Below are positions 21,703 to 61,762 of a DNA stretch of 64,000 nucleotides, piece by piece; the first letter of the stretch is position 1; each line of letters opens with the position of its first letter. The notes beneath the pieces are model-generated. The model saw only the letters and a list, made by a program, of their open reading frames with translations. It had not been told where the DNA came from and searched no databases. Origin of the DNA: Streptomyces sp. PCS3-D2 (lineage in GTDB: Bacteria; Actinomycetota; Actinomycetes; Streptomycetales; Streptomycetaceae). The stretch is taken from NCBI RefSeq assembly GCF_000612545.2, contig NZ_CP097800.1, positions 1,426,001 to 1,490,000 on the forward strand. The letters are read 5' to 3'. Both the position numbers and the translations under genes were made by a program.

Positions 21703-21705
21703 GGT

Positions 21706-22101: not shown

Positions 22102-22217
22102 CGGACTCCGTCCTGCCGGGGCTCATTACACCGGCGGTACGGAGCTGCGGCCGTCGGGCACGCCGGTGCGCCGCGCCGCCCGTACGCCGTTCGGCGGGGG
22201 CGCGGCGCCGTCCGGCG

Positions 22218-22322: not shown

Positions 22323-22885
22323 GGGGTTCTCCTCAGTTCACGGCGGGGTGCGCCGGCTTCGTCGGGAGCCGGCAGGTCGAGCAGGTCGAGAGCCATGCGG
22401 ACGGCCTCCGGTACGGCGGCGGCCACGGGCGGGCTCAGCGCGATGCCCTCCTCGACGCAGCCGGGCTCGCAGCCGAGGACCAGCGTGCGCCGCGGCGGGG
22501 TGGCGCCGGTCCCGGCGCACAGGGTGTCCAGGAGTGCGAGGACGGTGTCGGGCGACATCTGGTGGCCGTCGAGTGCGGGCCCTTCGCCGGGTCCCGAGGC
22601 CGGTGTGCCGTCTGCGGTCGCGGCCGCCGTACCGGTGCCCGGCTGCACCTCGATGAGGTACAGGGTGCCCGGTTCGCCACCGCGGGCGGTGGCGTCGACC
22701 AGGACGAGCGTGTCGTAGCCGTCGAGGAGCTGGTAGGCGAGGTGGACCCCGCGCACGCCGAAGTCCACCACCTCGACCCCGTCGGGGAGCGGGTGGGCGG
22801 ACAGGGCGCGTACGGTCTCCACTCCGAAGCCGTCGTCGCCGAGGAAGACGTTGCCGATGCCGGCGATCAGGACCCTGGGGTTCAC
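22319..22885 (-). CDS. Hydrogenase maturation protease (HyaD/HupD/HycI family)
   Basis: This 188-aa endopeptidase clips the C-terminal extension of the large subunit after nickel insertion. It begins with the family signature VLIAGIGNVFLGDDGFG, followed by VVDFGVRGVHLAYQLLDGYD and LVLVDATARGG; the nickel-sensing Glu of the family is replaced by Asp at GDDGFG, a frequent variant. A proline-rich insertion occurs at about residues 85-105. The GTG start at 22885 overlaps the upstream gene's stop (GTGA), and the 3' end overlaps the 34-aa gene. Confidence 0.93.
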   Translation of the reverse strand: MNPRVLIAGIGNVFLGDDGFGVETVRALSAHPLPDGVEVVDFGVRGVHLAYQLLDGYDTLVLVDATARGGEPGTLYLIEVQPGTGTAAATADGTPASGPGEGPALDGHQMSPDTVLALLDTLCAGTGATPPRRTLVLGCEPGCVEEGIALSPPVAAAVPEAVRMALDLLDLPAPDEAGAPRRELRRTP

Positions 22886-24303
22886 GCGTCCTCCGGCAGG
22901 GTGACCTCGTCGGGCTGGAAGTAGAGGAAGCGGCCCTGTTCCCGGCGGATGTCGGCGCCGGGGTCGTCCTCCACCGTGACGGCGAGGTGCACTCCCCCGT
23001 CGACGTCGTGCAGGACGGCTTCGACCAGGGCGGAGCGGCCGTGGAGGAAGAGGTCCTGGGCGTCGGTGCGGCGCGGTCCGGGGCGCAGCAGGACGCGGCT
23101 GCCGGGGCCGACGGGGGCTCCGTCGATCGTGATCCGGTCCGGGGCCGGGCCGGCGGGGTCGGCGCCGGCCGGATCCCACCAGGGGGTGTCCGGCTTGAAC
23201 AGCGCCTCCTCGTCGGGGATCCCGGAGGTCTCTTCCGAAAGGTGCGGGCCGGTGACCTCGCGCAGGGAGCGCACCGCTCCGTGCAGCCGTTCCAACACCT
23301 CGGGGGGCAGGGAGTCGGCGAGGTCGACGACCGCGGCCGCCCGGGCGTCGGTGCCGCGGGCCTCGCGCTTCTCCTGGTCGGTCAGGGCCGCCGTGCGCAG
23401 GGCCAGGATCTCGTCGATCTCGGTGGCGTCGTACATGGCGCCCGCGCTCTCGGGCGCGATGGCCGGGTGGTCCTCCAGGATGATCGGGGAGGACAGGACG
23501 ACGTCGGCGCGGCCCGCCTCACCGGCGAGCACCGGCCAGGTGTGGCGGTTCGCGCAGGCGGCGACGGCCTCCCGGGCCCATTCGGGCGGGTCGGTCATGG
23601 AGAGGAAGGAACCGGAGTCGAGCCCCAGCAGGAGGTGGGCGGCGACCAGTGAACGGGGCAGGGCGGCCTCGCGGTCGGCCCCGGTTCCCGCCGCGGGGGT
23701 CCACGGGCTGGTGTTCTCCACGACGGCGGTGAGCCGGAACACCCGGTAGGCGCCGTCGAGTTCCACGGCGCGCAGCCGCAGTACGCCTTCGAGGGGCTCG
23801 GTGCGCCGTACCAGGCGGCCCGCCGTCCGCCCGTCGGCGTCGAGGACGGTCTCGATGTCGTCGCGTGCGGGGCGGGTGAACGGGACGGTGACGCCGTCGC
23901 CGGTCAGCCCGCTGACGGGGACGGCCAGTTCGACGTGTTCCTCGGTTCCTTCGTCCCAGGGCACGAGGACCCGGTCGGCCAGGTGCAGCTCGTCGACGTC
24001 GTCGAAGCCGCCGTCGTCCCGGGCCTGTTGGACCGTGCGCCGCTGCGCGTGCAGGAAACGCAGCTCCAGGGCGAGCGTCGCGTCACCCTTCGGCTCCATC
24101 AGTACCTCGGTCCGCTGGAAGGCGTGCTCGCCGTGCGCGGGGCCCCACGCGGGGGGCACGAGGACGCCGAACTGCCAGCGCATCCGGTTCTTGGCGGCGG
24201 AGGCCCGGTAGGGGTAGAGCACGTACCCTTCGAGGAGGACGGCGTCGGCCACCTGACGGGCGGCGGCGAATCGGGGGTCCGCGGCGGCGGTGGTCGCGGT
24301 CAC
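22882..24303 (-). CDS. Conserved hydrogenase-cluster protein of unknown function
   Basis: This 473-aa soluble, acidic protein has no signal peptide, membrane segment or recognisable catalytic motif. Notable segments are LLEGYVLYPYRASAAKNRMR near the N-terminus and FLYFQPDEV near the C-terminus. Genes of this type are found, as I recall, only beside group 1h hydrogenases in actinobacteria. It overlaps both neighbours by 4 bp, so it is translated with the structural and maturation genes. A role in assembly or stability is inferred from position only. Confidence 0.75.
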   Translation of the reverse strand: MTATTAAADPRFAAARQVADAVLLEGYVLYPYRASAAKNRMRWQFGVLVPPAWGPAHGEHAFQRTEVLMEPKGDATLALELRFLHAQRRTVQQARDDGGFDDVDELHLADRVLVPWDEGTEEHVELAVPVSGLTGDGVTVPFTRPARDDIETVLDADGRTAGRLVRRTEPLEGVLRLRAVELDGAYRVFRLTAVVENTSPWTPAAGTGADREAALPRSLVAAHLLLGLDSGSFLSMTDPPEWAREAVAACANRHTWPVLAGEAGRADVVLSSPIILEDHPAIAPESAGAMYDATEIDEILALRTAALTDQEKREARGTDARAAAVVDLADSLPPEVLERLHGAVRSLREVTGPHLSEETSGIPDEEALFKPDTPWWDPAGADPAGPAPDRITIDGAPVGPGSRVLLRPGPRRTDAQDLFLHGRSALVEAVLHDVDGGVHLAVTVEDDPGADIRREQGRFLYFQPDEVTLPEDA

Positions 24304-25001
24304 GGGGCCGTCCTCTCGGTGAGGCGGGGCCGCAGCCCACCCGGCCGGACGGTCCCGGGCGGGGGCGGGGGTGCGGGATCGGAGGCGCCCAGCAGCGCGC
24401 GTACGGTCGCCTCCCAGGAGGCGAGCGCGTGGCGGGAGCGGTAGGCGAGCAGGTCGGCCATCAGGTCCGCGGGCAGCCGGAGCCAGCCGCAGCCGGGGAA
24501 GTGCTGCTCGATCATCTCCCGCCAGACGGCCACCGGCATCCGGTACGCGGCTTCGCGGTCCCAGGGCACCGGCTCGACCCGGAAGCCCCCGTCGCCGGTG
24601 AAGGCGGTGCCGGAGAACAGCATGAGCAGCGGGACTTCGCCGTCCCGGAGGGCTTCGAAGTACCGGGTCGCGGCGATGTCCATGTCGTAGGTGCAGGGCA
24701 CGACCAGGTCCGTCTCGGTCTCCCCGGTGAAGCCCGGCACCATGACCGGCACCTGGGCGAACTGCACGGGCTGGAGCGTGGTTCCCCAGCGGGAGCGTTC
24801 GCCGAAGAGGTCGGCGAGGCCCTCCGCCTCGGCCGGGCCGTAGCCGCGCCGGGCCGGTTCGATGCGGATCTGGCAGCGCAGGGCGAGGGCGTGCACGCGG
24901 GTGTCCGGGTCGGCGGTGACGCGCAGCCGGAAGACGAGGGTGGGGCCGGCGGCGTACGGGTCGGCCCGCACGCCGGTGCAGGTGAACGCGAAGCCCGTCA
25001 T
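24300..25001 (-). CDS. Conserved hydrogenase-cluster protein (DUF6084-like)
   Basis: This 233-aa protein is predicted soluble and beta-rich, with a central VPVMVPGFTGETETDLVVPC segment and an aromatic C-terminal half (WREMIEQHFPGCGWLRLPAD). No metal-binding motif is evident. The resemblance to DUF6084 is from memory. It overlaps genes on both sides by 4 bp. Co-occurrence with hhySL suggests a function specific to this hydrogenase type, not general maturation, which hypABCDEFX cover. Confidence 0.75.
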   Translation of the reverse strand: MTGFAFTCTGVRADPYAAGPTLVFRLRVTADPDTRVHALALRCQIRIEPARRGYGPAEAEGLADLFGERSRWGTTLQPVQFAQVPVMVPGFTGETETDLVVPCTYDMDIAATRYFEALRDGEVPLLMLFSGTAFTGDGGFRVEPVPWDREAAYRMPVAVWREMIEQHFPGCGWLRLPADLMADLLAYRSRHALASWEATVRALLGASDPAPPPPPGTVRPGGLRPRLTERTAP

Positions 25002-25660
25002 GACCGGTCCCCCGCGGGGGCCGCGGCGGCCACGGGCCGGGCGCGCCGCTCGACCTCGTCGAAGAAGGCGCCGAGCGCGGCCCGTGCCTCGGCTCCTCCG
25101 TCGAAGCCCTGCCACAGCATCCGCATCCGGCCCACCAGTTCGTAGCAGACGTCGATCGGCACGAGGTAGCAGCCGGAGCGCCCTTCCCAGCGGTGCACGA
25201 GGAGCGCTTCCGTGTCCGGTTCGAGAAGGGCGGCCAGCGGTCCGCCGTCGAGGACCTGCTGCCAGGTCTGCGGATCGAGTTCGCTCTCGGTCGCCCCCGC
25301 GGGGCTGGGGTAGAGGGCGACCAGCCGGTCCAGTGCGGCGTTGCGGAAGAAGAAGGCGACGCCGACGGGGATCTGGAGGCGTTCCCACACCCCGGCGTCG
25401 AGCCGGTGGCCGGGGTCGGTCAGGTAGCGGTCGGGGACGGCGCGGTAGCGGCCGGTCCGGGTGCCGGGCCGGTCGAACAGCAGCGCGCAGGCGGTGCAGG
25501 CGCAGACCAGTGTCCGCTTCTCGGTCTCCACCAGGTGGCGGTGCCCGTCCGGGGGCACCGCCGCCCCGCACAGCTCGCAGGTTTCGGGCTGCGGCGGGCG
25601 CGGGGCGGTGAACCGGCGCAGCCCGCGCGGGCCGCCCGCGCCGACGGTGGGCCCGGTCAC
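24998..25660 (-). CDS. Conserved zinc-ribbon-like hydrogenase-cluster protein (DUF5947-like)
   Basis: This 220-aa protein has an N-terminal CELCGAAVP pair and a CACTACALLF pair (about residues 27-62) that form a likely zinc or iron-sulfur site. An HLVETEKRTLVC strand lies between them. The rest contains VGVAFFFRNAALDRLVALYP and a conserved WEGRSGCYLVPID. It resembles DUF5947 from memory. The Cys pairs could bind rubredoxin-type iron, so an electron-transfer role is possible but unproven. The GTG start at 25660 overlaps the NifU-like gene stop (GTGA). Confidence 0.75.
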   Translation of the reverse strand: MTGPTVGAGGPRGLRRFTAPRPPQPETCELCGAAVPPDGHRHLVETEKRTLVCACTACALLFDRPGTRTGRYRAVPDRYLTDPGHRLDAGVWERLQIPVGVAFFFRNAALDRLVALYPSPAGATESELDPQTWQQVLDGGPLAALLEPDTEALLVHRWEGRSGCYLVPIDVCYELVGRMRMLWQGFDGGAEARAALGAFFDEVERRARPVAAAAPAGDRS

Positions 25661-26184
25661 GGAACCCGCGCCGGGCTGGGCGGCCGGGTGCCGATCTGCA
25701 GGAGTGCGGGCTGCGGGGCCGGAGCGGGCTCCATCTCCACCCCGGTGACCTCGGGGGCGAAGCAGGTCAGGGTGTCCTCCAGCGTCCGCCGCCCGGCCTC
25801 CTCGCCGCCGGGGCCGCAGCCACAGCCGGTGGGAGCGGCCGCGGGGCGCAGCCGCAGGACGCCGGTGGCCTCGTCGAAGCCGATCATTTCCACTGGTTGG
25901 GGTGCGCCGGCCAGGGCTCGGGCGATCCGGGTGTGGACGTCCTGGGGGTGCAGGCCGTGCAGGGAGAGCAGGCTCGCGACGAGTTCGTCGTCCGCGGCGG
26001 CGGCCAGTGGGCCGTCGCCGAGCTTCGCGGCGATCCGGGCCAGGCCCGCGCCGTAGAACTCCATGAGTACGCGCACCAGTTCCTCGGCGGCCGCGCACGC
26101 CTCGCGGTCCCCGGTGGCGGCCAGCCGGTCGAGGACCTCCTCGACGCGGCGGCCCGCCTCCCGGGCGTCGACGGCCGCGCTCAT
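25657..26184 (-). CDS. NifU-like hydrogenase-associated protein with altered Cys motif
   Basis: This 175-aa protein has a helical N-terminal half and a C-terminal half resembling the NifU C-terminal Fe-S scaffold domain: APTGCGCGPGGEEAGRRTLE, then an aligned helix ending ALTCFAPEV-like TCFAPEVTGVEME. In normal NifU domains the motif is CxxC; here it is CGCG plus a later Cys. It may donate iron-sulfur clusters to the small subunit. It overlaps the large-subunit gene by 4 bp, consistent with coupled synthesis. Confidence 0.8.
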   Translation of the reverse strand: MSAAVDAREAGRRVEEVLDRLAATGDREACAAAEELVRVLMEFYGAGLARIAAKLGDGPLAAAADDELVASLLSLHGLHPQDVHTRIARALAGAPQPVEMIGFDEATGVLRLRPAAAPTGCGCGPGGEEAGRRTLEDTLTCFAPEVTGVEMEPAPAPQPALLQIGTRPPSPARVP

Positions 26185-27965
26185 CCGCCCAGTCCGCTCA
26201 GGCCGGTGGGAACGTGCATCGTCTTGACGGTCTTGCCGCCGCCGACGTACATGTGGACGCCGCAGGGCAGGCAGGGGTCGAAGCTGCGCACGGCGCGCAT
26301 GATGTCGATGCCCTTGAAGTTCTCCGGGGTGTTCTCCTCGAAGATCGGGGTGTTCTGCACGGCGTCCTCGTACGGTCCGGGCGTGCCGAAGGTGTCGCGG
26401 GTACTGGCGTTCCACGGCGTGGGCGGGTACGGGTGATAGTTGGCGATCTTGCCGTCGCGGATCACCATGTGGTGCGAGAGGACGCCGCGGACGGCCTCGG
26501 TGAAGCCGACGCCGATGGACTCGTCCGGCACCTCGAACTTCTCCCAGGTCTGGGTGCGTCCGGCACGGACCTCGGCGAGGCCCTTCTCGGCGCAGTGCAG
26601 GGCGATGGCGGCCGCGTACGCCTGGAAGTAGGTGCGGGCGCGGTTGCGCTCCAGGGCGTTGCTCCACTTCGGGATCTTCCACTCGAAGCGGGTCTCGGGC
26701 TTGGTCATCGTGCGGGGCAGGTTGATGACGACGCTGTGCCCGGTGGCCTGGACGTAGCCGACGTCGACGAGGCCGGAGAGGGCCGTGGACCACAGGCGGG
26801 CGATGGGGCCGCCGCCGGTGTCGAGGGCGAGGTGGTCCTTGCCGTCGAACCAGCGCGGCGACATCACCCAGCTGTACTTGTCGTCGAAGTTGCGCTTCTG
26901 CGGTGCCGGGATGGTGTGCTGGTTCCACGGGTGGCGGGGGTCGACCGGGTTGCCGAGCGGGTCGTGCGTGACGAACTGCTCCTTGCCCTCCCAGTCGTCG
27001 TAGTACGAGCTGCCGAGCAGGATGCGAATGCCCAGGTTGATCTGGGTGAGGTCGTTGGTGACGAGCTTGCCGTCCACGACGACGCCGGGGGTGACGAACA
27101 TCTTGCGTCCCCAGTCGGTCATGTTGGCGTAGGTGAAGTCGCAGTGCTCGGGGTCGTTGAGCGCGCCCCAGCAGCCCAGCAGCACCCGGCGGCGGCCGAC
27201 CTCCTCGTAGCCGGGCAGGGCCTCGTAGAAGAAGTCGAACAGGTCGTCGTGGAGCGGGACGACGCGCTTCATGAACTCGACGTACCGCATGAGGCGGCTC
27301 ATGTAGTCCGTGAAGAGCTGTACCGAGGCGACGGTGCCGACGCCCCCCGGGTAGAGCGTGGAGGGGTGCACGTGGCGCCCCTCCATCAGGCAGAACATCT
27401 CGCGCGTGTAGCGGCTGACCTGGAGGGCCTCGCGGTAGAACTCGCCCTCGATGGGGTTGAGGGAGCGCATGATGTCGGCGATGGTGCGGTAGCCGTGGTC
27501 GCCCGCGTGCGGGGCCTCGGTCCGCTCGGCCAGCTCCAGGACGCCGGGGTTGGTCTCGCGGACCATCTTCTCGCAGTAGTCGACCCCGACCAGGTTCTCC
27601 TGGAAGATGTTGTGGTCGAACATGTACTCGGCGGACTCGCCCAGGTTGATGATCCATTCGCCGAGGTGCGGCGGCTTCACCCCGTAGGCCATGTTCTGCG
27701 CGTAGACGGAACAGGTGGCGTGGTTGTCGCCGCAGATCCCGCAGATGCGGCTGGTGATGAAGTGCGCGTCGCGGGGGTCCTTCCCGCGCATGAAGACGCT
27801 GTAACCGCGGAAGACCGAGGAGGTGCTGTAGCACTCCGCGACGCGCTTCTGCTTGAAGTCGATCTTCGTGTGGATGCCGAGGCTGCCGACGATCCGGGTG
27901 ATCGGATCCCAGGCCATCTCCACCAGGCCGCTGCCGTCTCCGGCCGCCTTCGTGTTCGGTGCCAT
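26181..27965 (-). CDS. hhyL: Group 1h [NiFe]-hydrogenase large subunit
   Basis: This 594-aa catalytic subunit oxidises H2. The nickel-iron ligands are in ITSRICGICGDNHATC (L1) and DPCLPCGVH near the C-terminus (L2). About 23 residues after that His should be removed by the encoded protease. Sequence features (VFRGYSVFMRGKDPRD, the position of L2) and the gene neighbourhood fit the actinobacterial high-affinity group 1h/group 5 hydrogenases that scavenge atmospheric H2, usually in spores or stationary phase. The ATG at 27965 follows a 99-bp gap after hhyS. Assignment to the group is from motif recall, not from a tree. Confidence 0.96.
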   Translation of the reverse strand: MAPNTKAAGDGSGLVEMAWDPITRIVGSLGIHTKIDFKQKRVAECYSTSSVFRGYSVFMRGKDPRDAHFITSRICGICGDNHATCSVYAQNMAYGVKPPHLGEWIINLGESAEYMFDHNIFQENLVGVDYCEKMVRETNPGVLELAERTEAPHAGDHGYRTIADIMRSLNPIEGEFYREALQVSRYTREMFCLMEGRHVHPSTLYPGGVGTVASVQLFTDYMSRLMRYVEFMKRVVPLHDDLFDFFYEALPGYEEVGRRRVLLGCWGALNDPEHCDFTYANMTDWGRKMFVTPGVVVDGKLVTNDLTQINLGIRILLGSSYYDDWEGKEQFVTHDPLGNPVDPRHPWNQHTIPAPQKRNFDDKYSWVMSPRWFDGKDHLALDTGGGPIARLWSTALSGLVDVGYVQATGHSVVINLPRTMTKPETRFEWKIPKWSNALERNRARTYFQAYAAAIALHCAEKGLAEVRAGRTQTWEKFEVPDESIGVGFTEAVRGVLSHHMVIRDGKIANYHPYPPTPWNASTRDTFGTPGPYEDAVQNTPIFEENTPENFKGIDIMRAVRSFDPCLPCGVHMYVGGGKTVKTMHVPTGLSGLGG

Positions 27966-28064
27966 CGTGTCTGCCGTGACCCTTCTTCGGTGCGTGCGGG
28001 GGGTGCGGTGCGTGCGGTGCGTTTCCGGGCGCTGTCTGCGGGAGGGTGCGGGGCGCGCGGCCCG

Positions 28065-29120
28065 TCACCAGGGCGGGCGGTAGCCCGTGGTCAGGCTGCG
28101 GCCGCTGCGCCGCCACTTCGGCTCCTCGTCCACGGTGTGGGCGGTGACGGAGCGGAGCTTGCGGATCAGGGCCCCGTAGGCCCCGCTCGCGGTGACGGAG
28201 ACCTTCGCACCGGGGGGCTCGTCCATGAAGGGCATGAACTTGTCGGGGAAGCCGGGCATGGTGCAGGCGATGCAGATGCCGCCGACGTTGGGGCAGCCGC
28301 CGATGCCGTTCATCCAGCCGCGCTTGGGAACGTTGCACTTCACGACGGGGCCCCAGCAGCCCAGCTTGACCAGGCACTTCGGGGAGTCGTAGGTGTCAGC
28401 GAACTGGCCCTGCTCGTAGTAGCCGGCGCGGTCGCAGCCCTCGTGCACGGTCGCACCGAACAGCCAGGTGGGGCGCAGTTTGTCGTCGAGGGGGATCATC
28501 GGGGCCGATCCCGCCGCCTGGTAGAGCAGGTAGGTGAGCGTCTCCGAGAAGTTGTCCGGCTGGATCGGGCAGCCCGGCACGCACACGATGGGGATGCCGG
28601 CCCGGGACTTCCAGTCCCACCCCAGGTAGTCGGGCACGCCCATGGCGCCGGTCGGGTTGCCCTCCATGGCGTGGATGCCGCCGTAGGTGGCGCAGGTGCC
28701 GATGGCGACGACGGCGAGTGCCTTGGGGGCCAGCCGGTCGATCCACTCACTGGTGGTGATGGGCTGACCGGTCGCCGGGTCGTCGCCGAACCCGCACCAG
28801 TAGCCCTCGGGCTTGATCGACTCATTGGGGATCGAGCCCTCGACGACGAGGACGAACGGATCGATCTCGCCGCGCTCGCCCTTGAAGAACCACTCGATGA
28901 ACGTGTCCGCGCCGCCGACCGGACCGCATTCGAAGTCGATCAGGGGCCAGTGAACGGCGATCTTGGGGAGTCCCGGCAGGGTGCCGGTGACGATCTCCTC
29001 GATGCTCGGCTGCATCGCCGCCGTCAGGGACACGGAGTCGCCGTCGCAGCTCAGACCCGCGTTGATCCAGAGGATGTGGACCACGGGGTCTTCGACCGGG
29101 TCCTTCGTCGCTGCGGCCAT
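28065..29120 (-). CDS. hhyS: Group 1h [NiFe]-hydrogenase small subunit
   Basis: This 351-aa electron-transfer subunit holds three iron-sulfur clusters. The N-terminus has no Tat signal and there is no C-terminal membrane anchor, typical of this group. The proximal-cluster motif is Cys25-Asp-Gly-Asp28 instead of CxxC; Asp ligation of the proximal cluster is known from the Ralstonia actinobacterial-type enzyme. Further Cys lie in VAIGTCATYGGI, CVPGCPIQPDN, HEGCDRAGYY, KCLVKLGCWGP and GGICIACTMPGF. The ATG at 29120 is preceded by GAGGAGG. It lies 80 bp after hypX. Confidence 0.96.
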   Translation of the reverse strand: MAAATKDPVEDPVVHILWINAGLSCDGDSVSLTAAMQPSIEEIVTGTLPGLPKIAVHWPLIDFECGPVGGADTFIEWFFKGERGEIDPFVLVVEGSIPNESIKPEGYWCGFGDDPATGQPITTSEWIDRLAPKALAVVAIGTCATYGGIHAMEGNPTGAMGVPDYLGWDWKSRAGIPIVCVPGCPIQPDNFSETLTYLLYQAAGSAPMIPLDDKLRPTWLFGATVHEGCDRAGYYEQGQFADTYDSPKCLVKLGCWGPVVKCNVPKRGWMNGIGGCPNVGGICIACTMPGFPDKFMPFMDEPPGAKVSVTASGAYGALIRKLRSVTAHTVDEEPKWRRSGRSLTTGYRPPW

Positions 29121-29200
29121 GCGCTGCCTCCTCGGGGAGGGGATCAGGATGTGGGAGGGACGGGGCGCGGAGGCGGTCCGCCTCGGCCCCACGTTTCTTG

Positions 29201-30952
29201 CTAACAGCTGCGGGGGCCGGGTGCCGCGTCCGGTTCGGCCAGTCCAGTGACGCCGCGCCGGTCCGCGGCGGCGCGGGCGAGGTGGTGCGGGGTCGCCGCC
29301 GGGCGCTCCTTGCGGACGAAGGCACGGCGCAGCGCGTGGTAGGGGGCGTGCGGGTCGTCGAAGGTCCGCCGCATCCGCGCCAGCTCGTCTTCCCGGTGGG
29401 CGGCCAGCGGGCGCCGCGCCTCGTCGCGCTCGCGTGCGGCCTTCTTCGCAGCGATCCGGGACGCGGTGGCGGGCACGGCGGCGAGACGGACCGCGAGGCG
29501 CTGCGTCTCGCGGGGGAAGTCTCCGGGCGCGCAGGGGACCGTACGGTCGACCAGTCCGAGCCGGTGCGCGGCGGCGGCGCTCAGGGGCAGTGCCTCGGTG
29601 GTGAGGCGGTCGGCGAGGGCTGGGCCGACCCGGCGGGGCAGGGTGTACGTCCAGTACTCGGAGCCGTACAGGCCCATCAGGCGGTAGTGCGGGTTCAGGA
29701 CGACGCCGGTGCGGCACCAGACCTCGTCGGCGGCGAGGGCCAGCATGGCGCCGCCGGCGGCGGCATTGCCGCCGAGCGCGCTCACCACGAGCCGGTCGGT
29801 GGTCGTCAGGACCGCCTCGACCAGGTCGTCCATGGCGTTGATGTTGGCCCAGGACTCCTCGGCGGGGTCCGCGGCGGCCTCGATGACGCCCAGGTGGATG
29901 CCGTTGGAGAAGAAGTCGCGGCCGCCGCCCAGGACCAGGACCGTGGTGGGGCGGGTGCAGGCGGTCCGGTACGCGTCGAGCAGCCGGCGGCAGTGCGTGG
30001 TGCTCATGGCGCCGCCGGGGAAGGAGAACGACAGGAAGCCGGTCCGCCCTTCCTCGTGGTAGCCGATGTCGGACCAGGCGGGGCGGTACGGGCCGGCGTC
30101 GGGCGGGGCCGGGAGTTCGGGGAGCGGGGGCAGCCGGTCGAGCCGGTCCGCGAGGGCGAGGGTCGCGGGCAGCCGGGGGGTGGCGGGCCGGCCCGCCACC
30201 CGGGGGGCGCGCAGCTCGGGGATCCACACGGCACCGTCGGCGGTGGCCCGGCAGACGGCCCCGGACCGGGTGGCGAGCAGCTCGCCGGGGCGGCCGCGCA
30301 GGCCGTCCTCACGGTGGCCGCCGTGCAGGTACCAGTCGGCGCCGAGCAGGTGGTCGGGTACTCCGGGCTGCGAGTCGGCGGCGCGCAGCAGGCGCAGGAC
30401 GCGCTCGGTGCCGTCCGCGGCCCAGTCGATCCGGCGGTCGTGTCCGCGCACGGCCGGCCGGGCCCGGCCGGCCGCCTGGGGGCGCGGGCGGTACGTGCCG
30501 GAGGCGAAGCGCTCGACGGCGAGCAGGACGGCCGCGAGCGCGGCGTCGGCGATCTCGCCGCGGTAGAGGTCGCTCTTGCCGACGGGGGGTACCGGGCAGT
30601 CGACGGTGGCCCAGACGTCCCCGGCGTCCATCTCGGCGTTGGCCTGGAGGACCGTGACCCCCCACCGGGTCTCGCCGTCCTGGACGGCGTGGTCGAGGGA
30701 GGAGGGGCCGCGGTCGCCCACCGGTCCCGGGTGGAGGACGAGGCAGGTGTACGCGGCCCAGACGTCCTCGGGGATGGCAGTGCGCAGCATCGGCGCGAGG
30801 ACGAGGTCGGGCCGGTGGCGGCGCACGGCGTCGCCCAGGGGGGCGTCGGGCAGGGCCAGTTCGACGGCCACCCGGTGGCCGTGGTCGCGCAGCTCGGCGT
30901 GGACTCGCTGGGTGAGGCTATTGAACGCGCTCGCGACGAGCAGGACGTACAC
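29201..30952 (-). CDS. hypX: HypX: CO-ligand-forming hydrogenase maturation protein
   Basis: This 583-aa two-domain protein makes the CO ligand of the active site from formyl-tetrahydrofolate under aerobic conditions. The N-terminal formyltransferase-like part (about residues 1-180) has HPGPVGDRGPSSLDHA. The C-terminal crotonase-like part (about 290-540) has GGGRDFFSNGIHLGVIEAA and ALGGNAAAGGAMLALAADEVW. The GTG start at 30952 is preceded by GGGAG. It is the first gene of the operon. Its presence fits a hydrogenase that works in air. Confidence 0.93.
   Translation of the reverse strand: MYVLLVASAFNSLTQRVHAELRDHGHRVAVELALPDAPLGDAVRRHRPDLVLAPMLRTAIPEDVWAAYTCLVLHPGPVGDRGPSSLDHAVQDGETRWGVTVLQANAEMDAGDVWATVDCPVPPVGKSDLYRGEIADAALAAVLLAVERFASGTYRPRPQAAGRARPAVRGHDRRIDWAADGTERVLRLLRAADSQPGVPDHLLGADWYLHGGHREDGLRGRPGELLATRSGAVCRATADGAVWIPELRAPRVAGRPATPRLPATLALADRLDRLPPLPELPAPPDAGPYRPAWSDIGYHEEGRTGFLSFSFPGGAMSTTHCRRLLDAYRTACTRPTTVLVLGGGRDFFSNGIHLGVIEAAADPAEESWANINAMDDLVEAVLTTTDRLVVSALGGNAAAGGAMLALAADEVWCRTGVVLNPHYRLMGLYGSEYWTYTLPRRVGPALADRLTTEALPLSAAAAHRLGLVDRTVPCAPGDFPRETQRLAVRLAAVPATASRIAAKKAARERDEARRPLAAHREDELARMRRTFDDPHAPYHALRRAFVRKERPAATPHHLARAAADRRGVTGLAEPDAAPGPRSC
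30077..30104. repeat. 28-bp direct repeat, copy 1 (in hypX)
   Basis: These 28 bp, starting GGCGGGGCGGTACGGGCC, are identical to 31137-31164 in the upstream intergenic region. In this copy they encode part of hypX (antisense of the segment around PDAGPYRPA). Confidence 0.8.
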
Positions 30953-31136
30953 GGGGTCTCCCGGCGGCGGCCCGGGGCCGCCCTGTCGCGGTGCCGGGTC
31001 TGATCGGCGGCTGGTCGCCGGAGCACGTCCGGCCGCCTGCGATGCTCGTCCCCGCGGGGCGGGCGGTGGCCGAAGCGGAGCGGCGATGTCACCCGAAAGC
31101 GCCGGGGGGCACGGCCGCTCGGCCCACCGCCGTCCC

Positions 31137-31164
31137 GGCGGGGCGGTACGGGCCGGCGTCGGGC
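31137..31164. repeat. 28-bp direct repeat, copy 2 (intergenic)
   Basis: Exact copy of 30077-30104, 1,060 bp away, in the same orientation and located about 185 bp before the hypX start. It is much longer than expected by chance even at this GC content. Confidence 0.8.
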
Positions 31165-31516
31165 CGCAGCCCCGGAACCCTGGCCGGGGCGGGCCGTACC
31201 GGCCGTACGGGCGGGCCGCCGGCTCACGGGGCGGTCGCTCCGCGGTCCCGGGGAAGGCTCCTCGGCTCGCGCCCGCGGCGGGTGCGTAATCCACGGTGGC
31301 GCCGAGAAGATATCGAGCCGGACTGGCAGGATGCCCCCGCCCGAAGCGATCGTTTTCGCACAGCACGTTTCGACGGCGGCCGTTCGGGGTCCGATGCCGT
31401 CGTCCCCGATCGGACGCATCAGGTGCCGCCCTTCCACCATTTCCACCCCGGCCGATGCTGGCCGAAATCGCTCGGGTAGCCCGGAGTTTCTGCCGACTTC
31501 CGGCCATTCAATGCGA

Positions 31517-31729: not shown

Positions 31730-33484
31730 ATGCTTTCCGAACCACTCCCTTACGAGACGGTGGTCGACGCCGTCCGCGCGCACGCCCTCCGCATACCGGA
31801 CCACCCGCTGTTCACCTTCCTGCCCGACGGCGAGGAGGCCGAGCCCCCTCTCACCTTCGCGGCGCTCGACACCAGGGCCCGGGCCGTCGCCGCGAGCCTG
31901 CACGCCGCGCGGGTGGAGCCCGGCTCCCGCGCACTCCTGCTGTTCGAGCCCGGCCAGGACTTCGTCGTCGCGTTCTTCGGCTGCCTGTACGCGGGCGTCG
32001 TCGCGGTGCCCGCGTACCTGCCCCACCCCGCGCAACGCGCCCGCGGGCTGCTGCGGCTGGCCGGCATCGCCGAAGACGCGCAGCCCGCGGCCGTACTGAC
32101 CACCGCCGGGATCCGGGCGGCCGTCGAGCCGGCGGCGCGGACCATCCCGGAGGTCCAGGAGACGGCCTGGCTGGCCGTCGACACGATCGCGGACGCGACC
32201 GGAACGGGCTGGTCCGCGCCGTCCCCGGAGCCGAAGTCCGTCGCCTTCCTCCAGTACACCTCCGGCTCCACCGGGCGGCCGAAGGGCGTGATGGTCACCC
32301 ACGGCAATCTCACCCACAACACCGACCTGATCCGCACGTCCCTCGGAATGGACGGATCCACGGTCGTCGTGGGCTGGCTTCCCCCGTATCACGACATGGG
32401 GCTGATCTCCATGATCATCGTTCCGGCGATGCTGGGGATCCATTCCGTTTCCATGCCGACCGTGGCGTTCCTGCAGAGCCCGGTGCGCTGGCTGCGCGCG
32501 ATATCGACGTACCGGGGAACGCTTTCCGCGGCCCCCAATTTCGCATTCGACCTGTGCACGCGAAAAGTGACCGCCGAGGACCGCGCGCGCTTGGACCTCT
32601 CGTCCTGGAGCGTCGCGACGAATGGCGCCGAACCCGTTCGCGCCGATTCCATGAAACGTTTCTCCGAGGCATTCGCCTCCACCGGATTCCGACCGGAAAC
32701 CATCGTTCCGGTGTACGGGCTCGCCGAAAGCACCCTGCTCGTGAGCGGGGCGCCGCTCGAACGGCCCTGGGTGTTTCGCGCCTTCGACGAGGACGCGCTC
32801 GAACGCGGCACCGCGGTGAACGTGCCCGACGACAGCCCGGGGGCGCGCGTCCTGGTCAGCTGCGGCGTCAGCCGGACCCTGGACGTGGCCGTCGTCGACC
32901 CGCGCACCCGCACACGGTGCGGTCCGGGACGGGTCGGTGAGATCTGGGTCGCGGGCGACAGCATCGCGGTCGGCTACTGGCAGCGTCCCGACCTCACCCG
33001 CGAAGCCTTCGAGGCGACACCGGCCGACGGCGAGGACGAGGGCCCGTACCTGCGCACGGGGGACCTCGGGTTCCGGACGCAGGACGGTCTCTTCGTCTGC
33101 GGCCGCATCAAGGACGTCATCATCGTGGGCGGCCGCAACCACTACCCCCACGACATCGAGCGCACCGCCGAGAGCGCGCACCCCTCGATCCGCCCCGGCT
33201 GCGTCGCCGCCTTCGGCGTGGACGCGGACGGCGCGGAGCAGGTGGTGGTCGCCGCCGAGCTGCGCCGCGGGGCCGGCGAGGCCCCGGACCGGGAGGACCG
33301 GCAGGCGGTGGTGGACGCCGTCCTGCGCGCGGTGGCCCAGGAACACCGGCTGACCGTCCGCGAGGTCGTCCTCCTGCCCGCCGGCACCCTGCCCAAGACG
33401 TCGAGCGGAAAGCTCCAGCGCCGCGAGACCAGGAAGGAGTACCTGGCCGGCCGGTCTCCGTGGAACGCGCGAGCGCAGCACTGA
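31730..33484 (+). CDS. Fatty acyl-AMP ligase (FAAL/FadD32-like)
   Basis: This 584-aa enzyme of the FAAL branch of the ANL family activates a long-chain fatty acid as acyl-AMP and passes it directly to an acyl carrier protein. Evidence: FLQYTSGSTGRPKGVMVTHG, the FAAL-typical WLPPYHDMGLIS, VYGLAESTL, YLRTGDLGF and the C-terminal LPKTSSGKLQRR. The PKS 31 bp downstream starts with an ACP, the expected acceptor. The start at 31730 is preceded by GAGG; ATG 31718 is the alternative. Codons at about 32390-32760 are less GC-biased at the third position than the rest, perhaps reflecting transfer or recombination. Confidence 0.92.
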   Translation: MLSEPLPYETVVDAVRAHALRIPDHPLFTFLPDGEEAEPPLTFAALDTRARAVAASLHAARVEPGSRALLLFEPGQDFVVAFFGCLYAGVVAVPAYLPHPAQRARGLLRLAGIAEDAQPAAVLTTAGIRAAVEPAARTIPEVQETAWLAVDTIADATGTGWSAPSPEPKSVAFLQYTSGSTGRPKGVMVTHGNLTHNTDLIRTSLGMDGSTVVVGWLPPYHDMGLISMIIVPAMLGIHSVSMPTVAFLQSPVRWLRAISTYRGTLSAAPNFAFDLCTRKVTAEDRARLDLSSWSVATNGAEPVRADSMKRFSEAFASTGFRPETIVPVYGLAESTLLVSGAPLERPWVFRAFDEDALERGTAVNVPDDSPGARVLVSCGVSRTLDVAVVDPRTRTRCGPGRVGEIWVAGDSIAVGYWQRPDLTREAFEATPADGEDEGPYLRTGDLGFRTQDGLFVCGRIKDVIIVGGRNHYPHDIERTAESAHPSIRPGCVAAFGVDADGAEQVVVAAELRRGAGEAPDREDRQAVVDAVLRAVAQEHRLTVREVVLLPAGTLPKTSSGKLQRRETRKEYLAGRSPWNARAQH

Positions 33485-33515
33485 CCCGCACGACAGCACG
33501 ACACAGGGGGAGCAT

Positions 33516-39860
<6,345 letters not shown>

Positions 39861-39861
39861 G

Positions 39862-41025
39862 ATGGCCGTGGAAGAATCTCGCAGTCGATCAGAGTGGAAA
39901 CAGACGTTCCGTACGTTCGCCGACGAGGTGATGGCCCCGCACGTGCGACGGTGCGACGAGGAACGGGAGTTCCCCGCGGCGGTCCACGAACGGGCCGCCG
40001 CCGAGGGCATCCTCAACGCCGCCTTTCCGGAGGAGCTGGGCGGCGCCGGGCTCTCGTACACGGAGTTCGGCCACGTCATCGGGGAACTGTCCGCGGTCTG
40101 CCCGGGGATGACCTGGACCCTGGTGTTCAACCGCGGCGCGCTGCACCCGGTGGTCGCCGCCGGCACGCCGGAGCAGAAGGAGCTCTTCGTCACCCGGCTC
40201 CTGAAGGACAACGGCTACGCGGCGCTCGGGCTCACCGAGCCCGAGAACGGCTCCAACCTGCTGGCGGCCACCACCCGTGCCGTCCGGACGGATTCGGGGT
40301 GGCTGCTCAACGGCGGCAAGTGCATGTCCGGCAACGGGACCGTCGCCGACGTGTTCATCGTCCTGGCCAACACGGTGATCGACAACCGCAAACGTGGCCT
40401 GTCCTTCTTCGCCGTACCGCGGGACGCTCCCGGCGTGACCGTGGGCGAGGACATCGAGAAGGCCGCGTTCCGCTGCCTGCCCACGCCCTCGGTCACCTTC
40501 CGGGACGTGGCGCTGGAGCCGATCAGCCTGATCGGAGGGGCCGGTGACGGGGAGATGCTGCTGAACGAACTCCTCGCGACCATCCGCATCGGCGGCGCCG
40601 CCTGCGGAGCCGGCATCGTGGCCGCCATGCTCAAGGACGCGCTCACGTGGGTCGGCGAGCGCCGGGTCTACCCCGACGACCGCATGGACACCCTCAGCCA
40701 CGTCCAATTGGCGCTGGGACGGCTGTACGTCGAGCTGTGCGCCGCCCGGGGGCTGCTGGACGAGGCGACGGCGCTGGCCGACCGGGGGCTGCCCTTCGGC
40801 CGGGAGAGCTCCATGGCGAAGTACTACGCCACCGAGCTCGCCGTGCGCGCCTCGAACGAGATCCTGCAGTTGTACGGATGGCGCGGCATTGCGGCCGACC
40901 ACGGCGTCGAGAAGCGCTGGCGGGACGCGCGCGCCCTGACCATCTTCGAGGGATCGAGCGAGATCCAGCTGTTGAACGTGTTTCGCGACATGCGGAGGGC
41001 GGCCGCCGGCGAGGGGGGTCTGTAG
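39862..41025 (+). CDS. Acyl-CoA dehydrogenase family protein
   Basis: This 387-aa flavoprotein introduces an alpha,beta double bond in an acyl thioester. Motifs: GLTEPENGSN (FAD/substrate-binding region), RASNEILQLYGWRG and IFEGSSEIQLL, which holds the catalytic-base position. The length is normal. The ATG at 39862 is one base after the PKS stop and it is followed directly by the hydrolase, so it belongs to the lipid operon. It may act on the PKS product on carrier protein or CoA; either is inference. Confidence 0.92.
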   Translation: MAVEESRSRSEWKQTFRTFADEVMAPHVRRCDEEREFPAAVHERAAAEGILNAAFPEELGGAGLSYTEFGHVIGELSAVCPGMTWTLVFNRGALHPVVAAGTPEQKELFVTRLLKDNGYAALGLTEPENGSNLLAATTRAVRTDSGWLLNGGKCMSGNGTVADVFIVLANTVIDNRKRGLSFFAVPRDAPGVTVGEDIEKAAFRCLPTPSVTFRDVALEPISLIGGAGDGEMLLNELLATIRIGGAACGAGIVAAMLKDALTWVGERRVYPDDRMDTLSHVQLALGRLYVELCAARGLLDEATALADRGLPFGRESSMAKYYATELAVRASNEILQLYGWRGIAADHGVEKRWRDARALTIFEGSSEIQLLNVFRDMRRAAAGEGGL

Positions 41026-41886
41026 GTGTCGTCCGTCGAAGTGAGCTCCGAGACGGTGCGTGCCGAGGACGGCGCCACGTCGGAGGTCAGGCTGCACCGC
41101 AGGCCTGGCGATCCGTCCGCGCCGGTCCTGGTGTGCATGCCCGCCATGGGCACCCGGGCCGCCTCGTACGCCCCGCTGGCGGACGCCCTCGCCGAAGCCG
41201 GGTTCCAGGTGGCCGTCGGCGAGCTGCGCGGGCAGGGAACGAGTTCCGTGCGCGTGGGGCGCGGGGTGCGCTACGGCTATCACGAGATGGTCTGCTACGA
41301 CTACCCCGCGCTCTTCCGGGCGGTCGAGGCCGCCTTCCCGACGGCACCGCGCCACCTCCTGGGGCACAGCCTCGGTGGGCAGCTCGGCGCCCTCTACCTC
41401 AGCCAGGAGCCGCACATGGCCTCGGGCGCCGTCCTGGTGGGAGCCCCCTCCTGCCACTACCGCGGCTGGCCCTTCCCACAGAGCCTGGGGATGCTCGCCG
41501 CCTTCCAGGCCGCGGCCGCGTTCTCCGCGCTGTACGGGTATTTCCCGGGCCGCCGCATCGGAGTACTGGGCAACGACTCCGCGCAGGTCCTCAGGGACAT
41601 GGCGACCCAGGTCAGGACGGGCCGCTACCACGTGCCGTCCAGCGAGGTGGACTTCGAGCCCGCCCTGGCGAAGCTCGAACTGCCGGTTCTGGCGGTCGCG
41701 GTCAAGGGCGACGCCATGGCACCGCCCGGCGGCGTGCGCGGGCTCGCCGGCAAGCTCACGAACGCCCGCGTGACGTACTGGGAGCTCGCTCTCGGCGAGG
41801 GCGCCCAGGGCCGCCGGCACTACGCGTGGATCCGGGACAGCGCCGCGCTCGTCGAGCGGGTACGGACTTTCGTGGACGGGGTCTGA
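41026..41886 (+). CDS. Alpha/beta hydrolase of the lipid cluster
   Basis: This 286-aa alpha/beta-fold hydrolase has the nucleophile elbow GHSLGGQLG, an oxyanion segment VCMPAMGTRA and a C-terminal RRHYAW providing the likely catalytic His. No signal peptide. The PKS has no thioesterase, so this protein may release the product (a trans-acting thioesterase). The GTG start immediately follows the dehydrogenase stop, without a gap. A strong hairpin starts 4 bp after its stop. Confidence 0.9.
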   Translation: MSSVEVSSETVRAEDGATSEVRLHRRPGDPSAPVLVCMPAMGTRAASYAPLADALAEAGFQVAVGELRGQGTSSVRVGRGVRYGYHEMVCYDYPALFRAVEAAFPTAPRHLLGHSLGGQLGALYLSQEPHMASGAVLVGAPSCHYRGWPFPQSLGMLAAFQAAAAFSALYGYFPGRRIGVLGNDSAQVLRDMATQVRTGRYHVPSSEVDFEPALAKLELPVLAVAVKGDAMAPPGGVRGLAGKLTNARVTYWELALGEGAQGRRHYAWIRDSAALVERVRTFVDGV

Positions 41887-41890: not shown

Positions 41891-41927
41891 CCTCCCCGGC
41901 CCGGTCAGCCCAGACGGGCCGGGGAGG
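41891..41927. terminator. Bidirectional hairpin terminator
   Basis: Perfect 13-bp arms, CCTCCCCGGCCCG (41891-41903) and CGGGCCGGGGAGG (41915-41927), with an 11-base loop. The stop codon of the minus-strand propeller gene (41905-41907) lies in the loop. It separates the lipid operon from the convergent MFS/propeller operon. Confidence 0.88.
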
Positions 41928-42921
41928 AGGCCCCGGAGATCAGCGGCCGGGGGCTCCCGGTGCCGTCGGCGGGCACGGTCCACAGGTCCGAACGGTCGGC
42001 GGCGCCGTCGGCGGGCAGGGCGTAGGCGAGCGTGCCGTCGTCCAACCAGGCGGCCTGGTCGTCCACGCTGCGCTTCTCGGCGAGCGGGTGGTCCCGCAGC
42101 GTCCGCAGATCCATGACGTGTTCGCGCCACAGCGAAGCGCCGGGCCGGACCCGCTTCTTGTACGCGATACGCGTCTCGTCCGGGGAGAGCGAGGGACATT
42201 CGACGTTCTTGGCAAGGGTGGTGACGGACCGTCCGGACACCGAACCCTTGACCAGGTACGTCTCACCGGCCGTGGCGAGCGTGGCATAGAAGGTGTCGTC
42301 GTCCGCGGAGAAGGTGACGCCCCAGAAGTTGACGTCCTGGGCGCGGTGCTCCCGCCCGTCCATGGTGATCGCGAACTGCTCCAGGTCGGCGTCGAGCTTC
42401 CAGGTGCTGGTGTCCAGGATGGCGGTGCGCGTGGAGAAGAACGCCGCGCCGTAGGACTCTCCGGAGATGAACACGGTCCAGGCGACGAAGCGGCCGCTGG
42501 GCGAGACGCGGGCCCGGCTGGGCGTGCCCGCCAGTGGGAAGCTGCGCACCTGGCGCAGCTCGGCGTCGACGATGACGGCCTTGTTGTCCTGGGCGAGGGC
42601 ACCTGGGCTGGAGCGCAGGCAGACGCCCGTACCCGCAGCCGCATGGAAGCGCTGGCAGGTGAGGTCGGACACCGTGCGGGTGCCTTCGGGCGCATCGGCC
42701 GGGACGGAGGCGAGGGCGCCGCGGTGCGGGCCCTGCCCGCTGCCCAGGAAGGCCAGCGCGTCCCGTCCGGCCGTCAGTGACACGGCCCCCGCGGTCGCGG
42801 CCGGGCCACCGGCCCGCGGCTGGTCGGCACGGGAGGCGGCGCGCAGCACCAGGGTGGCGCCGACGCCCCCGAGCAGCAGCACCGCCACCGCGAGGACGAG
42901 CAGGCGGCGGGAGCGTGTCAT
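41905..42921 (-). CDS. Membrane-anchored beta-propeller-like (TolB-type) protein
   Basis: This 338-aa protein has an N-terminal signal anchor (LLVLAVAVLLLGGVGATLVL) after basic residues, then an extracytoplasmic domain with repeated blades: RARVSPSGRFVAWTV, DVNFWGVTFSADDDTFYATL, ECPSLSPDETRIAYKK and DQAAWLDDGTLAYAL. Such TolB-like propellers often bind partner proteins or sugars. Start ATG 42921 is favoured by GAGGAA 4 bp upstream; a GTG at 42933 overlapping the MFS stop is the alternative. Cotranscribed with the MFS gene. Confidence 0.85.
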   Translation of the reverse strand: MTRSRRLLVLAVAVLLLGGVGATLVLRAASRADQPRAGGPAATAGAVSLTAGRDALAFLGSGQGPHRGALASVPADAPEGTRTVSDLTCQRFHAAAGTGVCLRSSPGALAQDNKAVIVDAELRQVRSFPLAGTPSRARVSPSGRFVAWTVFISGESYGAAFFSTRTAILDTSTWKLDADLEQFAITMDGREHRAQDVNFWGVTFSADDDTFYATLATAGETYLVKGSVSGRSVTTLAKNVECPSLSPDETRIAYKKRVRPGASLWREHVMDLRTLRDHPLAEKRSVDDQAAWLDDGTLAYALPADGAADRSDLWTVPADGTGSPRPLISGASSPARLG

Positions 42922-42929: not shown

Positions 42930-44294
42930 TCACGGGCGTCGGGCCGGGTCGGGCGGTGTGGGTGCGGGAGGCGTGCCGGGCGCAGCCGACGACGGCCGCA
43001 GCACGCGGCCGGCGACGGCCGCGCAGCACAGCAGGCCGGCCGCGGCGGCCGCGAGCGCCGGACCGGGGCCCCAGAGGGTCCATGCCCCGCCGAAGGCCAG
43101 CGAGCAGCCGAAGCGGGCCAGCGCCTGGCCGGTGCCGACCAGGGCCAGGCCGGTGCCGCGCAGCGGCTCGGGGACGGTGGCGGCCACGGCGGCCGGCAGC
43201 ACCCCGTCGGTGGCGGCGTAGAACAGGCCGTGCAGGGCGAGGACGAGGTAGGGCAGGGCGGGCCAGTCGGGGGCCCACAGCAGCAACCCGTAGGCGGTGA
43301 GCAGGAGGGCGTGCCCGGCAAGGAAGACGGTACGGCGTCCGATCCGGTCGGCGAGGGCCCCGGCCGGGACGGCCAGCAGCAGGAACACGGCGGCGGTGCC
43401 CAGCGGCAGGAGCGGGAACCACTGGTCGTCGATGCCGGTCCGGCGCTGGAGCAGCAGGTAGACGAAGGCGTCGCTGACGGTGGTGAGGCCGAGCAGGACC
43501 GCGCAGAGCGCCAGGGCGCGCAGCCGCGGCAGGCGCAGCAGCGCCACCGCGTCGCGCAGCTTCACGGGCTGCGGGCCGGCGGGCTCGACGGAGGGTGCCG
43601 GCGGGGCGGGTGCGGGGCGCCGGGCGGGCGGGGCCGCCGCCGGCCGGGGCGGGAAGTCGGCCGCGCCGGAGGGGACGAAGAGCACGAGCACCACGACGCC
43701 GAGTGCGGCGACGCAGGCGCTGACGCCGAAGACGGCGTCGTAGCCGTCGGCGGCCACGCCGAGGATGAGGAAGGCGGCGAGGGGCCCGAGCAGCGCTCCC
43801 GTGGTGTCCATGGCCCGGTGCAGGCCGAAGGCCCGGCCCTGTGACGCCTGCGGTGTGGACAGGGAGATCAATGCGTCGCGCGGGGCGGTGCGCAGGCCCT
43901 TGCCGGTGCGCTCCAGCGCCAGGATCACGCTGATCGGGCCGAGGCTGTGGGCGAGCAGCAGCAGGGGCTTGCACAGGGCGGACAGGCCGTAGCCGATACC
44001 GGCGACCAGCTTGTGGTTGCGGACCCGGTCGGCGAGGTGCCCGCCGGTGAGCTGCACCAGGGCGCTGACGCCGTTGTAGACGCCGTCGAGGGCGCCGAAC
44101 CCGAGCGGGCTGAGGCCGAGCCCCGCGATCAGGTACAGCGGCAGGACGGCGGTGACCATCTCGGAGGAGACGTCGGTGATCAGGCTGACCGTGCCCAGTG
44201 CGAGGACGGTCGGGGCGACCGCCCGCGCCCTGCCGGTTCCCCGGCCCGGTGCGGTCTTCGCGCCCGCGGGTGCGGAGCGGTCCGCGAGGTACAT
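42930..44294 (-). CDS. Major facilitator superfamily transporter
   Basis: This 454-aa protein has about 12 membrane helices and a long cytoplasmic central loop (about residues 205-255, Pro/Ala-rich). The first-half signature LTGGHLADRVRNHKLVAG and the second-half AGALADRIGRRTVFLAG are typical MFS A-motifs. The pairing with a secreted propeller suggests export or uptake of a compound whose identity cannot be read. The ATG at 44294 follows a GGGGGAG site; there is no adjacent regulator. Confidence 0.92.
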   Translation of the reverse strand: MYLADRSAPAGAKTAPGRGTGRARAVAPTVLALGTVSLITDVSSEMVTAVLPLYLIAGLGLSPLGFGALDGVYNGVSALVQLTGGHLADRVRNHKLVAGIGYGLSALCKPLLLLAHSLGPISVILALERTGKGLRTAPRDALISLSTPQASQGRAFGLHRAMDTTGALLGPLAAFLILGVAADGYDAVFGVSACVAALGVVVLVLFVPSGAADFPPRPAAAPPARRPAPAPPAPSVEPAGPQPVKLRDAVALLRLPRLRALALCAVLLGLTTVSDAFVYLLLQRRTGIDDQWFPLLPLGTAAVFLLLAVPAGALADRIGRRTVFLAGHALLLTAYGLLLWAPDWPALPYLVLALHGLFYAATDGVLPAAVAATVPEPLRGTGLALVGTGQALARFGCSLAFGGAWTLWGPGPALAAAAAGLLCCAAVAGRVLRPSSAAPGTPPAPTPPDPARRP

Positions 44295-61712: not shown

Positions 61713-61744
61713 GACACGGCTCCCATCCCGGACGGAAGAATTCC

Positions 61745-61762
61745 TGACTGAAATTTCAGTCA
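61745..61762. promoter_or_regulatory. 18-bp perfect palindrome, TetR operator
   Basis: TGACTGAAATTTCAGTCA is a perfect palindrome between the divergent deiminase (start 61712) and TetR (start 61821) genes. Its length and AT-rich centre fit a TetR-family operator controlling both genes. Confidence 0.8.

Follow-up and report, generated by a model that had tools for sequence, protein, structure and literature searches.

An in-module enoyl reductase (ER) of a polyketide synthase (PKS) normally lies between the structural half of the ketoreductase (KR) and the catalytic KR. MAS places its ER ahead of the KR and lacks an N-terminal acyl carrier protein (ACP), Pks13 follows the order ACP-ketosynthase (KS)-acyltransferase (AT)-ACP-thioesterase (TE), and cyanobacterial olefin synthases (OLSs) carry a sulfotransferase and a thioesterase after the last ACP. 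In module 1 of the trans-AT gladiolin system, an ER joined to an ACP works in cis, as described in the available part of that report (PMC10921412). In friulimicin-type lipopeptide pathways, acyl-CoA dehydrogenase-like proteins (ACADs) encoded beside a fatty acyl-AMP ligase (FAAL) put double bonds into the starter and are presumed, without mechanistic proof, to work on acyl groups carried by the FAAL or an ACP (PMC9113097, available in part). Here we describe a locus of Streptomyces sp. PCS3-D2 that encodes a FAAL, a type I PKS, an ACAD and a hydrolase, within a stretch of 64,000 nucleotides (the window; 1.426-1.490 Mb of contig 1 in a 7.63 Mb genome of 3 contigs). Its PKS has the order ACP-KS-AT-dehydratase (DH)-KR-ACP and ends in a reductase of the medium-chain dehydrogenase/reductase (MDR) superfamily. 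With a probability of roughly 0.6, we read the locus as a dedicated fatty-acyl extension pathway, in which FAAL would prime the first ACP (ACP1) for one reductive alkylmalonyl extension, combined with a double bond from ACAD and hydrolytic release.

The four genes are closely spaced on the plus strand over about 10 kb (Table 1) and their families are confirmed by Pfam and NCBIfam, in agreement with the four-gene operon of ligase, PKS, dehydrogenase and hydrolase in the original prediction, which had been made from the sequence without database searches. Pfam resolves the PKS into ketoacyl-synt (residues 99-341), Acyl_transf_1 (620-919), PKS_DH_N (968-1045), PS-DH (1081-1235) and KR (1425-1601) matches, two PP-binding stretches, the best at 1687-1747, and ADH_N/ADH_zinc_N at 1817-2071 with ADH_zinc_N_2 extending to 2111. 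Pfam and motifs bear out the predicted order ACP-KS-AT-DH-KR-ACP-ER, with an MDR as the last domain. Residues that we take to be catalytic or diagnostic are kept in 5/5 orthologs: the Cys, His and His of the KS, GHSMGE and ASH of the AT, the His and Asp of the DH, the serines of both ACPs, the glycine-rich loop, Ser, Tyr and LDD of the KR (LDD presumably marking a B-type KR), and the AAAGATG loop of the MDR together with a Lys and an Asp 22 residues apart.

A search of genomes for this domain order, as proposed with the original prediction, recovered it in one chain in 5 of 82 loci (74 from the best 80 of 352 relatives and 8 from the own genome), all from Streptomyces: S. avidinii (L001), S. 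sp. NRRL F-2580 (L002), S. virginiae (L003), S. sp. NRRL F-2664 (L004) and the locus itself (L075). The four orthologous PKSs are 80-87% identical to that of PCS3-D2, and the four-gene set is complete in 4/4 orthologous loci. A frameshift or assembly artefact as the source of the odd order was rejected, given the identical order in five genomes. Mean pairwise dN/dS is 0.24 for FAAL, 0.27 for the PKS, 0.09 for ACAD and 0.25 for the hydrolase; within the PKS it is 0.12 for ACP2, 0.14 for KR, 0.17 for the MDR, 0.23 for both KS and AT, 0.34 for DH and 0.35 for ACP1, compared with 0.42-0.92 across the five linkers (0.49 for the one that joins ACP2 to the MDR). By these ratios, all catalytic parts are maintained by purifying selection, and retention of the order in four species at this PKS identity, with gene-level ratios of 0.09-0.27, is more than chance. 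The fused architecture is rare: an ACP2-MDR query at E <= 1e-55 matched 3/296 Streptomyces genomes (own included), 1/396 Actinomycetota genomes (own only) and 3/120 relatives (the same three genomes as in the Streptomyces search), in searches that score few candidates per genome, so that diverged copies could escape.

The reductase lies at residues 1794-2114, behind ACP2, and no MDR match was found by Pfam or domain scan in residues 1246-1415, the usual ER slot. ADH_N and ADH_zinc_N domains and an NADP-binding fold place it in the MDR superfamily, and its confidently predicted fold (pLDDT 81.5, pTM 0.85) matches MAS ER, CurK ER, VAT-1 and quinone reductases. In a tree of ER and MDR domains, 31 PKS-frame ERs plus one short frame (L070) form one side of a 100/100 branch, with the fused MDR outside; all 31 long-frame rows also carry a KR match and 26 of the 31 a KS match. 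This tree took in three of the five fused orthologs (L001 and L003 were left out by a duplicate filter). Four long-branch rows and one second match from L129 had been dropped beforehand, and thinning took out another 24 rows (17 PKS-frame, 7 free-standing). Being unrooted, the tree would also accommodate the fused MDR as a deep sister of the PKS ERs. A quick tree of 87 rows agrees in placing the fused MDR outside the PKS ERs.

A displaced ordinary ER was rejected on the 100/100 clade of sampled PKS ERs. What the original prediction had called an ER after the final ACP is thus upheld in its position, and not as an ordinary out-of-order ER: since the MDR falls outside the sampled PKS ERs, a separately recruited enzyme fused to the C terminus is the more likely description of the tail. 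The tree position is shared with an alternative that we consider unlikely, namely that the MDR, instead of serving the module as its ER, has some other carbonyl or enone as its substrate, in the manner of a quinone reductase, or is a passenger, which would leave an unsaturated product, a 2-alkyl-2-enoyl acid (dienoyl with ACAD). The closest PDB sequence matches, VAT-1 and 2-haloacrylate reductase, would fit such an enzyme, with CurK ER close behind, as would a score of 198 bits on the NCBIfam PIG3 quinone reductase model, itself below the 296.8-bit cut-off. This alternative is harder to square with the strong constraint on the MDR (dN/dS 0.17), the retention of the fusion across five species, and the fold and many invariant residues that the MDR has in common with PKS ERs. 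Taking the MDR as the reductase of the module, we tentatively propose, as a possibility held at somewhat less than even odds, that a free-standing MDR of the quinone or enone reductase type was captured by fusion behind an ACP and became the ER of a FAAL-primed, self-contained cis-AT lipid-extending module, independent of the usual ER slot, with a dehydrogenase restoring unsaturation elsewhere in the chain. If the tail MDR is the reductase of the module, cis-AT PKS modules can reach full reduction through end-fusion of a foreign reductase, and an end-fused reductase could then be an easier engineering graft than a rebuilt internal loop.

Gene order, domains, conservation and the placement of the MDR apart from the sampled PKS ERs in the tree are direct observations, and the catalytic steps are predictions. 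FAAL would activate a free carboxylic acid as acyl-AMP and load the acyl group onto ACP1, from which the KS would take it and condense it with an alkylmalonyl unit selected by the AT, most likely methylmalonyl as judged from sequence rank. KR and DH acting on ACP2 would yield a 2-alkyl-2-enoyl thioester, which the C-terminal MDR, with its residues present, may reduce in cis. ACAD would add a double bond, either to the ACP1-bound starter, as proposed for lipopeptide starters, or to the product, and the hydrolase would free the acyl chain. The predicted product is a 2-alkyl-branched, possibly unsaturated fatty acid; such an acyl product had been put forward originally, and it is still the most economical reading of a FAAL-primed single reductive module with ACAD and hydrolase.

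The ligase and its KS partner bear on the first step. FAAL matches PF00501 at 5.7e-64 and the DIP2-like AMP C-terminal domain PF23024, typical of the class, above its Pfam cut-off. It scores higher on FAAL-named NCBIfam models (466, 444 and 432 bits) than on CoA ligase-named ones (375 for PRK07768, 176 for PRK06187), while staying under the own cut-off of all 25 models shown (for example, 466 versus 775). Its best PDB matches are 7r7g and 3kxw, and three motifs are kept in 5/5 orthologs. Beyond the orthologs, the five KSs next closest to that of the locus (56-59% identity) each lie directly behind a FAAL, in a set that is biased toward FAAL association by three loci fetched via their FAALs (L092, L095 and L097, the last among these five). 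Overall, 13 of the 174 KSs follow a FAAL (same strand, at most 1.5 kb upstream), 5 of the 13 being the locus and its four orthologs. In the KS tree (FastTree only, drawn with midpoint rooting), the KS falls in a group of 11 with an SH-like support of 92, below the 95 mark. The group comprises the five orthologs, L006 and L031 from mycobacterial FAAL-ACP-KS proteins, L092 and L095 from Streptomyces FAAL-ACAD-ACP-KS operons, and L069_66 and L040_9, whose loci have a FAAL-ACP protein farther upstream; other FAAL-following KSs (for example, L017, L027 and L097) lie outside it. The FAAL-following label requires 5 changes on this tree versus a shuffled mean of 12.7. We infer from the nearest KSs being FAAL-following that loading of ACP1 by FAAL is favoured.

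For the extender unit, the AT scores highest against solved structures of DEBS module 3 (289 bits), Lsd14 (288), tylactone (279) and MAS (232), followed by PpsA (192), 6iyo (158), CurL (153) and Pks13 (139), a ranking that reflects kinship as well as extender choice and that we interpret with the extender units we assume for these structures. The AT carries the VASH motif, from which methylmalonyl use had been predicted. In the available parts of the respective reports, VASH occurs in EPO AT7 and served as an attempted switch towards methylmalonyl (PMC8058987), is named an ethylmalonyl motif (PMC6090053) and is present in an isobutyrylmalonyl AT (PMC6490886). The motif alone, reported for several units, does not carry the earlier prediction; the whole AT, nearest to DEBS-type ATs and then to MAS, does speak for it, and we read the extender as an alkylmalonyl unit, probably methylmalonyl.

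This AT rank is one of several likenesses to MAS and Pks2, with which the PKS also shares a single module containing KS, AT, DH, an ER-like domain, KR and ACP. An iterative, MAS-like synthase that adds several methylmalonyl units to give a multiply methyl-branched lipid would fit the single complete reductive module, the absence of a KS from the 30 other window frames scanned and the similarity to the NCBIfam Pks2 model. That similarity, at 945 bits, is far under the 2,400-bit cut-off, the order is unlike that of MAS in having no ER before the KR and an extra N-terminal ACP, and the sequence gives no sign of iteration, which makes this alternative rather improbable. The MAS resemblance suggested earlier, with a different architecture, thus holds for domain content and AT rank, and does not extend to membership by the Pks2 model. 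We retain a single extension as the likely chemistry of the proposed pathway.

In ACAD, the catalytic Glu in FEGSSEIQ is kept in 5/5 orthologs and the gene lies near FAAL, both features of lipid-starter dehydrogenases. The closest ACAD paralog in the own genome is just 33% identical, indicating that ACAD did not arise by recent duplication within this genome. Translation most likely starts at ATG 39862, directly behind the PKS stop, and not at GTG 39823, the start of the longest open reading frame, which would overlap the PKS; the ATG gives 387 amino acids, equal to the length in the four orthologs read from the equivalent place. For FAAL, the start is 31730 or the in-frame alternative 31718. 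The Ser, Asp and His motifs of the hydrolase are present in 5/5 orthologs, and no PDB sequence match was found for it at E <= 0.001.

Several observations weigh against the proposed fatty-acyl extension pathway. A consensus scan found no sigma-70-like promoter, and terminators appeared at chance level only, for a predicted co-transcribed unit. FAAL relatives are common, with matches at E <= 1e-120 in 108/296 Streptomyces genomes (only two besides the own above 80% identity), and this commonness means that the presence of a FAAL proves no special role. The original prediction had raised the possibility that DH or ER lack key residues; the catalytic His and Asp of the DH are retained, whereas its surroundings are degenerate, without the usual HPALLD and HxxxGxxxxP residues when aligned to the first 25 other DH domains that score over 50 bits. 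DH and ACP1 are also the least constrained catalytic parts of the PKS. The predicted structure of the hydrolase was discarded (pLDDT 42, 5-row alignment), so its role is assigned by family only. A reductase would also undo the work of a dehydrogenase in the same pathway, and vice versa, if the two did not target different carbons. Finally, the fused MDR sits on a long branch, which makes its exact place in the tree unsure, and the fold search ranks PKS ERs equally with VAT-1 and quinone reductases, so the fold does not separate substrate classes.

Table 1 Features of the FAAL-PKS-ACAD-hydrolase locus (window positions; residues refer to the PKS)
Feature	Position	Strand	Evidence
FAAL, 584 aa	31730..33484	+	PF00501, PF23024, FAAL-named NCBIfam models, PDB matches, motifs
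Type I PKS, 2114 aa, ACP-KS-AT-DH-KR-ACP-MDR	33516..39860	+	Pfam domain order; orthologs in 4 named Streptomyces
ACP1, N-terminal (loading), residues 1-80	33516..33755	+	PP-binding; GLSSID at residue 36, 5/5 orthologs
KS, residues 99-525	33810..35090	+	Pfam; Cys-His-His kept
AT, residues 618-920	35367..36275	+	Pfam; GHSMGE ... DVASH
DH, residues 965-1245	36408..37250	+	Pfam; active-site His and Asp retained, degenerate flanking motifs
Linker/structural KR stretch, residues 1246-1415	37251..37760	+	Usual ER slot; MDR match absent
KR, residues 1420-1605	37773..38330	+	Pfam; TGGQGGLG, LDD, Ser, Tyr
ACP2, residues 1683-1752	38562..38771	+	Pfam; G(V/I)DSL at 1713, 5/5 orthologs
C-terminal MDR (enoyl reductase-like), residues 1794-2114	38895..39857	+	Pfam, NCBIfam, PDB matches, tree, predicted fold
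ACAD, 387 aa	39862..41025	+	PF02771/PF02770/PF00441; Glu in FEGSSEIQ
Alpha/beta hydrolase, 286 aa, candidate release enzyme	41026..41886	+	PF00561/PF12146; Ser/Asp/His motifs

The surroundings bear on a further alternative, in which the operon provides an acyl group for another pathway (acylation of a polysaccharide, lipopeptide or macrolide) and the hydrolase is an editing enzyme. The downstream genes, which code for an MFS transporter, a GFO/IDH/MocA oxidoreductase, an epimerase and a DegT aminotransferase, are kept in 4/4 orthologous loci, as such a link would lead one to expect; their conservation may equally be plain chromosomal synteny, and on the upstream side lie hydrogenase genes, for which no link is evident. 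We judge this alternative quite improbable and keep to a dedicated extension pathway.

The MFS transporter (42930-44294, minus strand) stands beside the operon in 4/4 orthologous loci and is a possible exporter of the product. Between it and the hydrolase, a minus-strand frame of at least 315 amino acids (41908-42852) has no Pfam match; its 339-residue L001 protein is 80-83% identical to the counterparts in the window, L003 and L004, and L002 has a 339-residue frame at the equivalent place. Upstream, 15886-31507 (minus strand) encodes a NiFe hydrogenase large subunit, maturation proteins (HypF, HypD and one that is AIR-synthase-like) and a formyl-transferase/enoyl-hydratase fusion that we take to be of the HypX type. 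HypX-like and hydrogenase genes are found upstream in 2/4 orthologous loci, the contigs of L003 and L004 ending before them. Farther downstream are a 1,100-residue protein that combines a DMFA2_C domain with bacterial Ig domains and two DUF4082 stretches, amid sugar and glycosyltransferase genes (51024-54326, plus strand), a peptidyl-arginine deiminase family protein of the Porphyromonas type (60537-61763, minus strand) and a DUF4158 protein that runs off the window end (62817-63998, plus strand), presumably a transposase N terminus. A separate, large modular PKS cluster with frames of up to 5,257 amino acids lies on the minus strand at 75-133 kb of the own contig C1 (L076-L082).

Among known systems, gladiolin module 1 offers the closest likeness for the tail of the PKS, as an ACP-ER didomain with NADPH-dependent reduction of the enoyl groups of that ACP, the activity predicted here. 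This experimental precedent, described in the accessible part of PMC10921412, qualifies the earlier view that an ER after the ACP is unusual. Gladiolin comes from a trans-AT assembly line, whereas the Streptomyces PKS has a built-in AT (Acyl_transf_1 at 309.7 bits, GHSMGE and ASH present), which sets it apart from trans-AT modules, stands alone behind a FAAL and carries an MDR outside the sampled PKS ERs. Friulimicin (LipA/LipB) and taromycin share with the locus a FAAL plus an ACAD-like enzyme, but there the acyl group goes to a condensation domain of a nonribosomal peptide synthetase and here it would go to a KS on the ACP's own chain (PMC9113097, in its available part).

Mycobacterial FAAL-ACP-KS-AT-KR-ACP proteins (L006, L031) likewise place a FAAL next to an ACP and a related KS (59% identity), and their loci hold ACAD-like frames that are 25-32% identical and lie some 3-7 kb upstream on the opposite strand. 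In these proteins, the FAAL is fused into the chain and both MDR and DH are absent (DH by Pfam for L006, by domain scan only for L031). The Streptomyces operons L092 and L095 have FAAL, ACAD-like gene(s), ACP and a KS of the same group (support 92), but their KS-AT-ACP protein has no KR, DH or reductase and their ACADs are just 22-27% identical; they are possibly a related, reductase-free pathway. Pks13 is set apart by a score of 839 versus the 2,100 cut-off and by the absence of a Pfam TE match from the chain, and OLSs by the absence of sulfotransferase and thioesterase Pfam matches after the last ACP, where the MDR stands instead. Foxicin, in which KS-AT-DH-KR-ACP is preceded by an N-terminal ACP, and lobophorin both differ in architecture from the PKS in the partial texts available.

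No characterised cluster with this architecture was found in open-licence literature, consisting mostly of titles and abstract openings, with subscription journals largely outside and MIBiG not covered, and the strings 'KR-ACP-ER' and 'DH-KR-ACP-ER' did not occur in the open-licence papers checked. Within that scope, the suggestion that the architecture is undescribed holds, and a described cluster elsewhere remains possible. The parts of the locus are familiar; what looks new is the way they are ordered in a stand-alone cis-AT module that is primed by a FAAL and whose MDR falls outside the ordinary ER clade.

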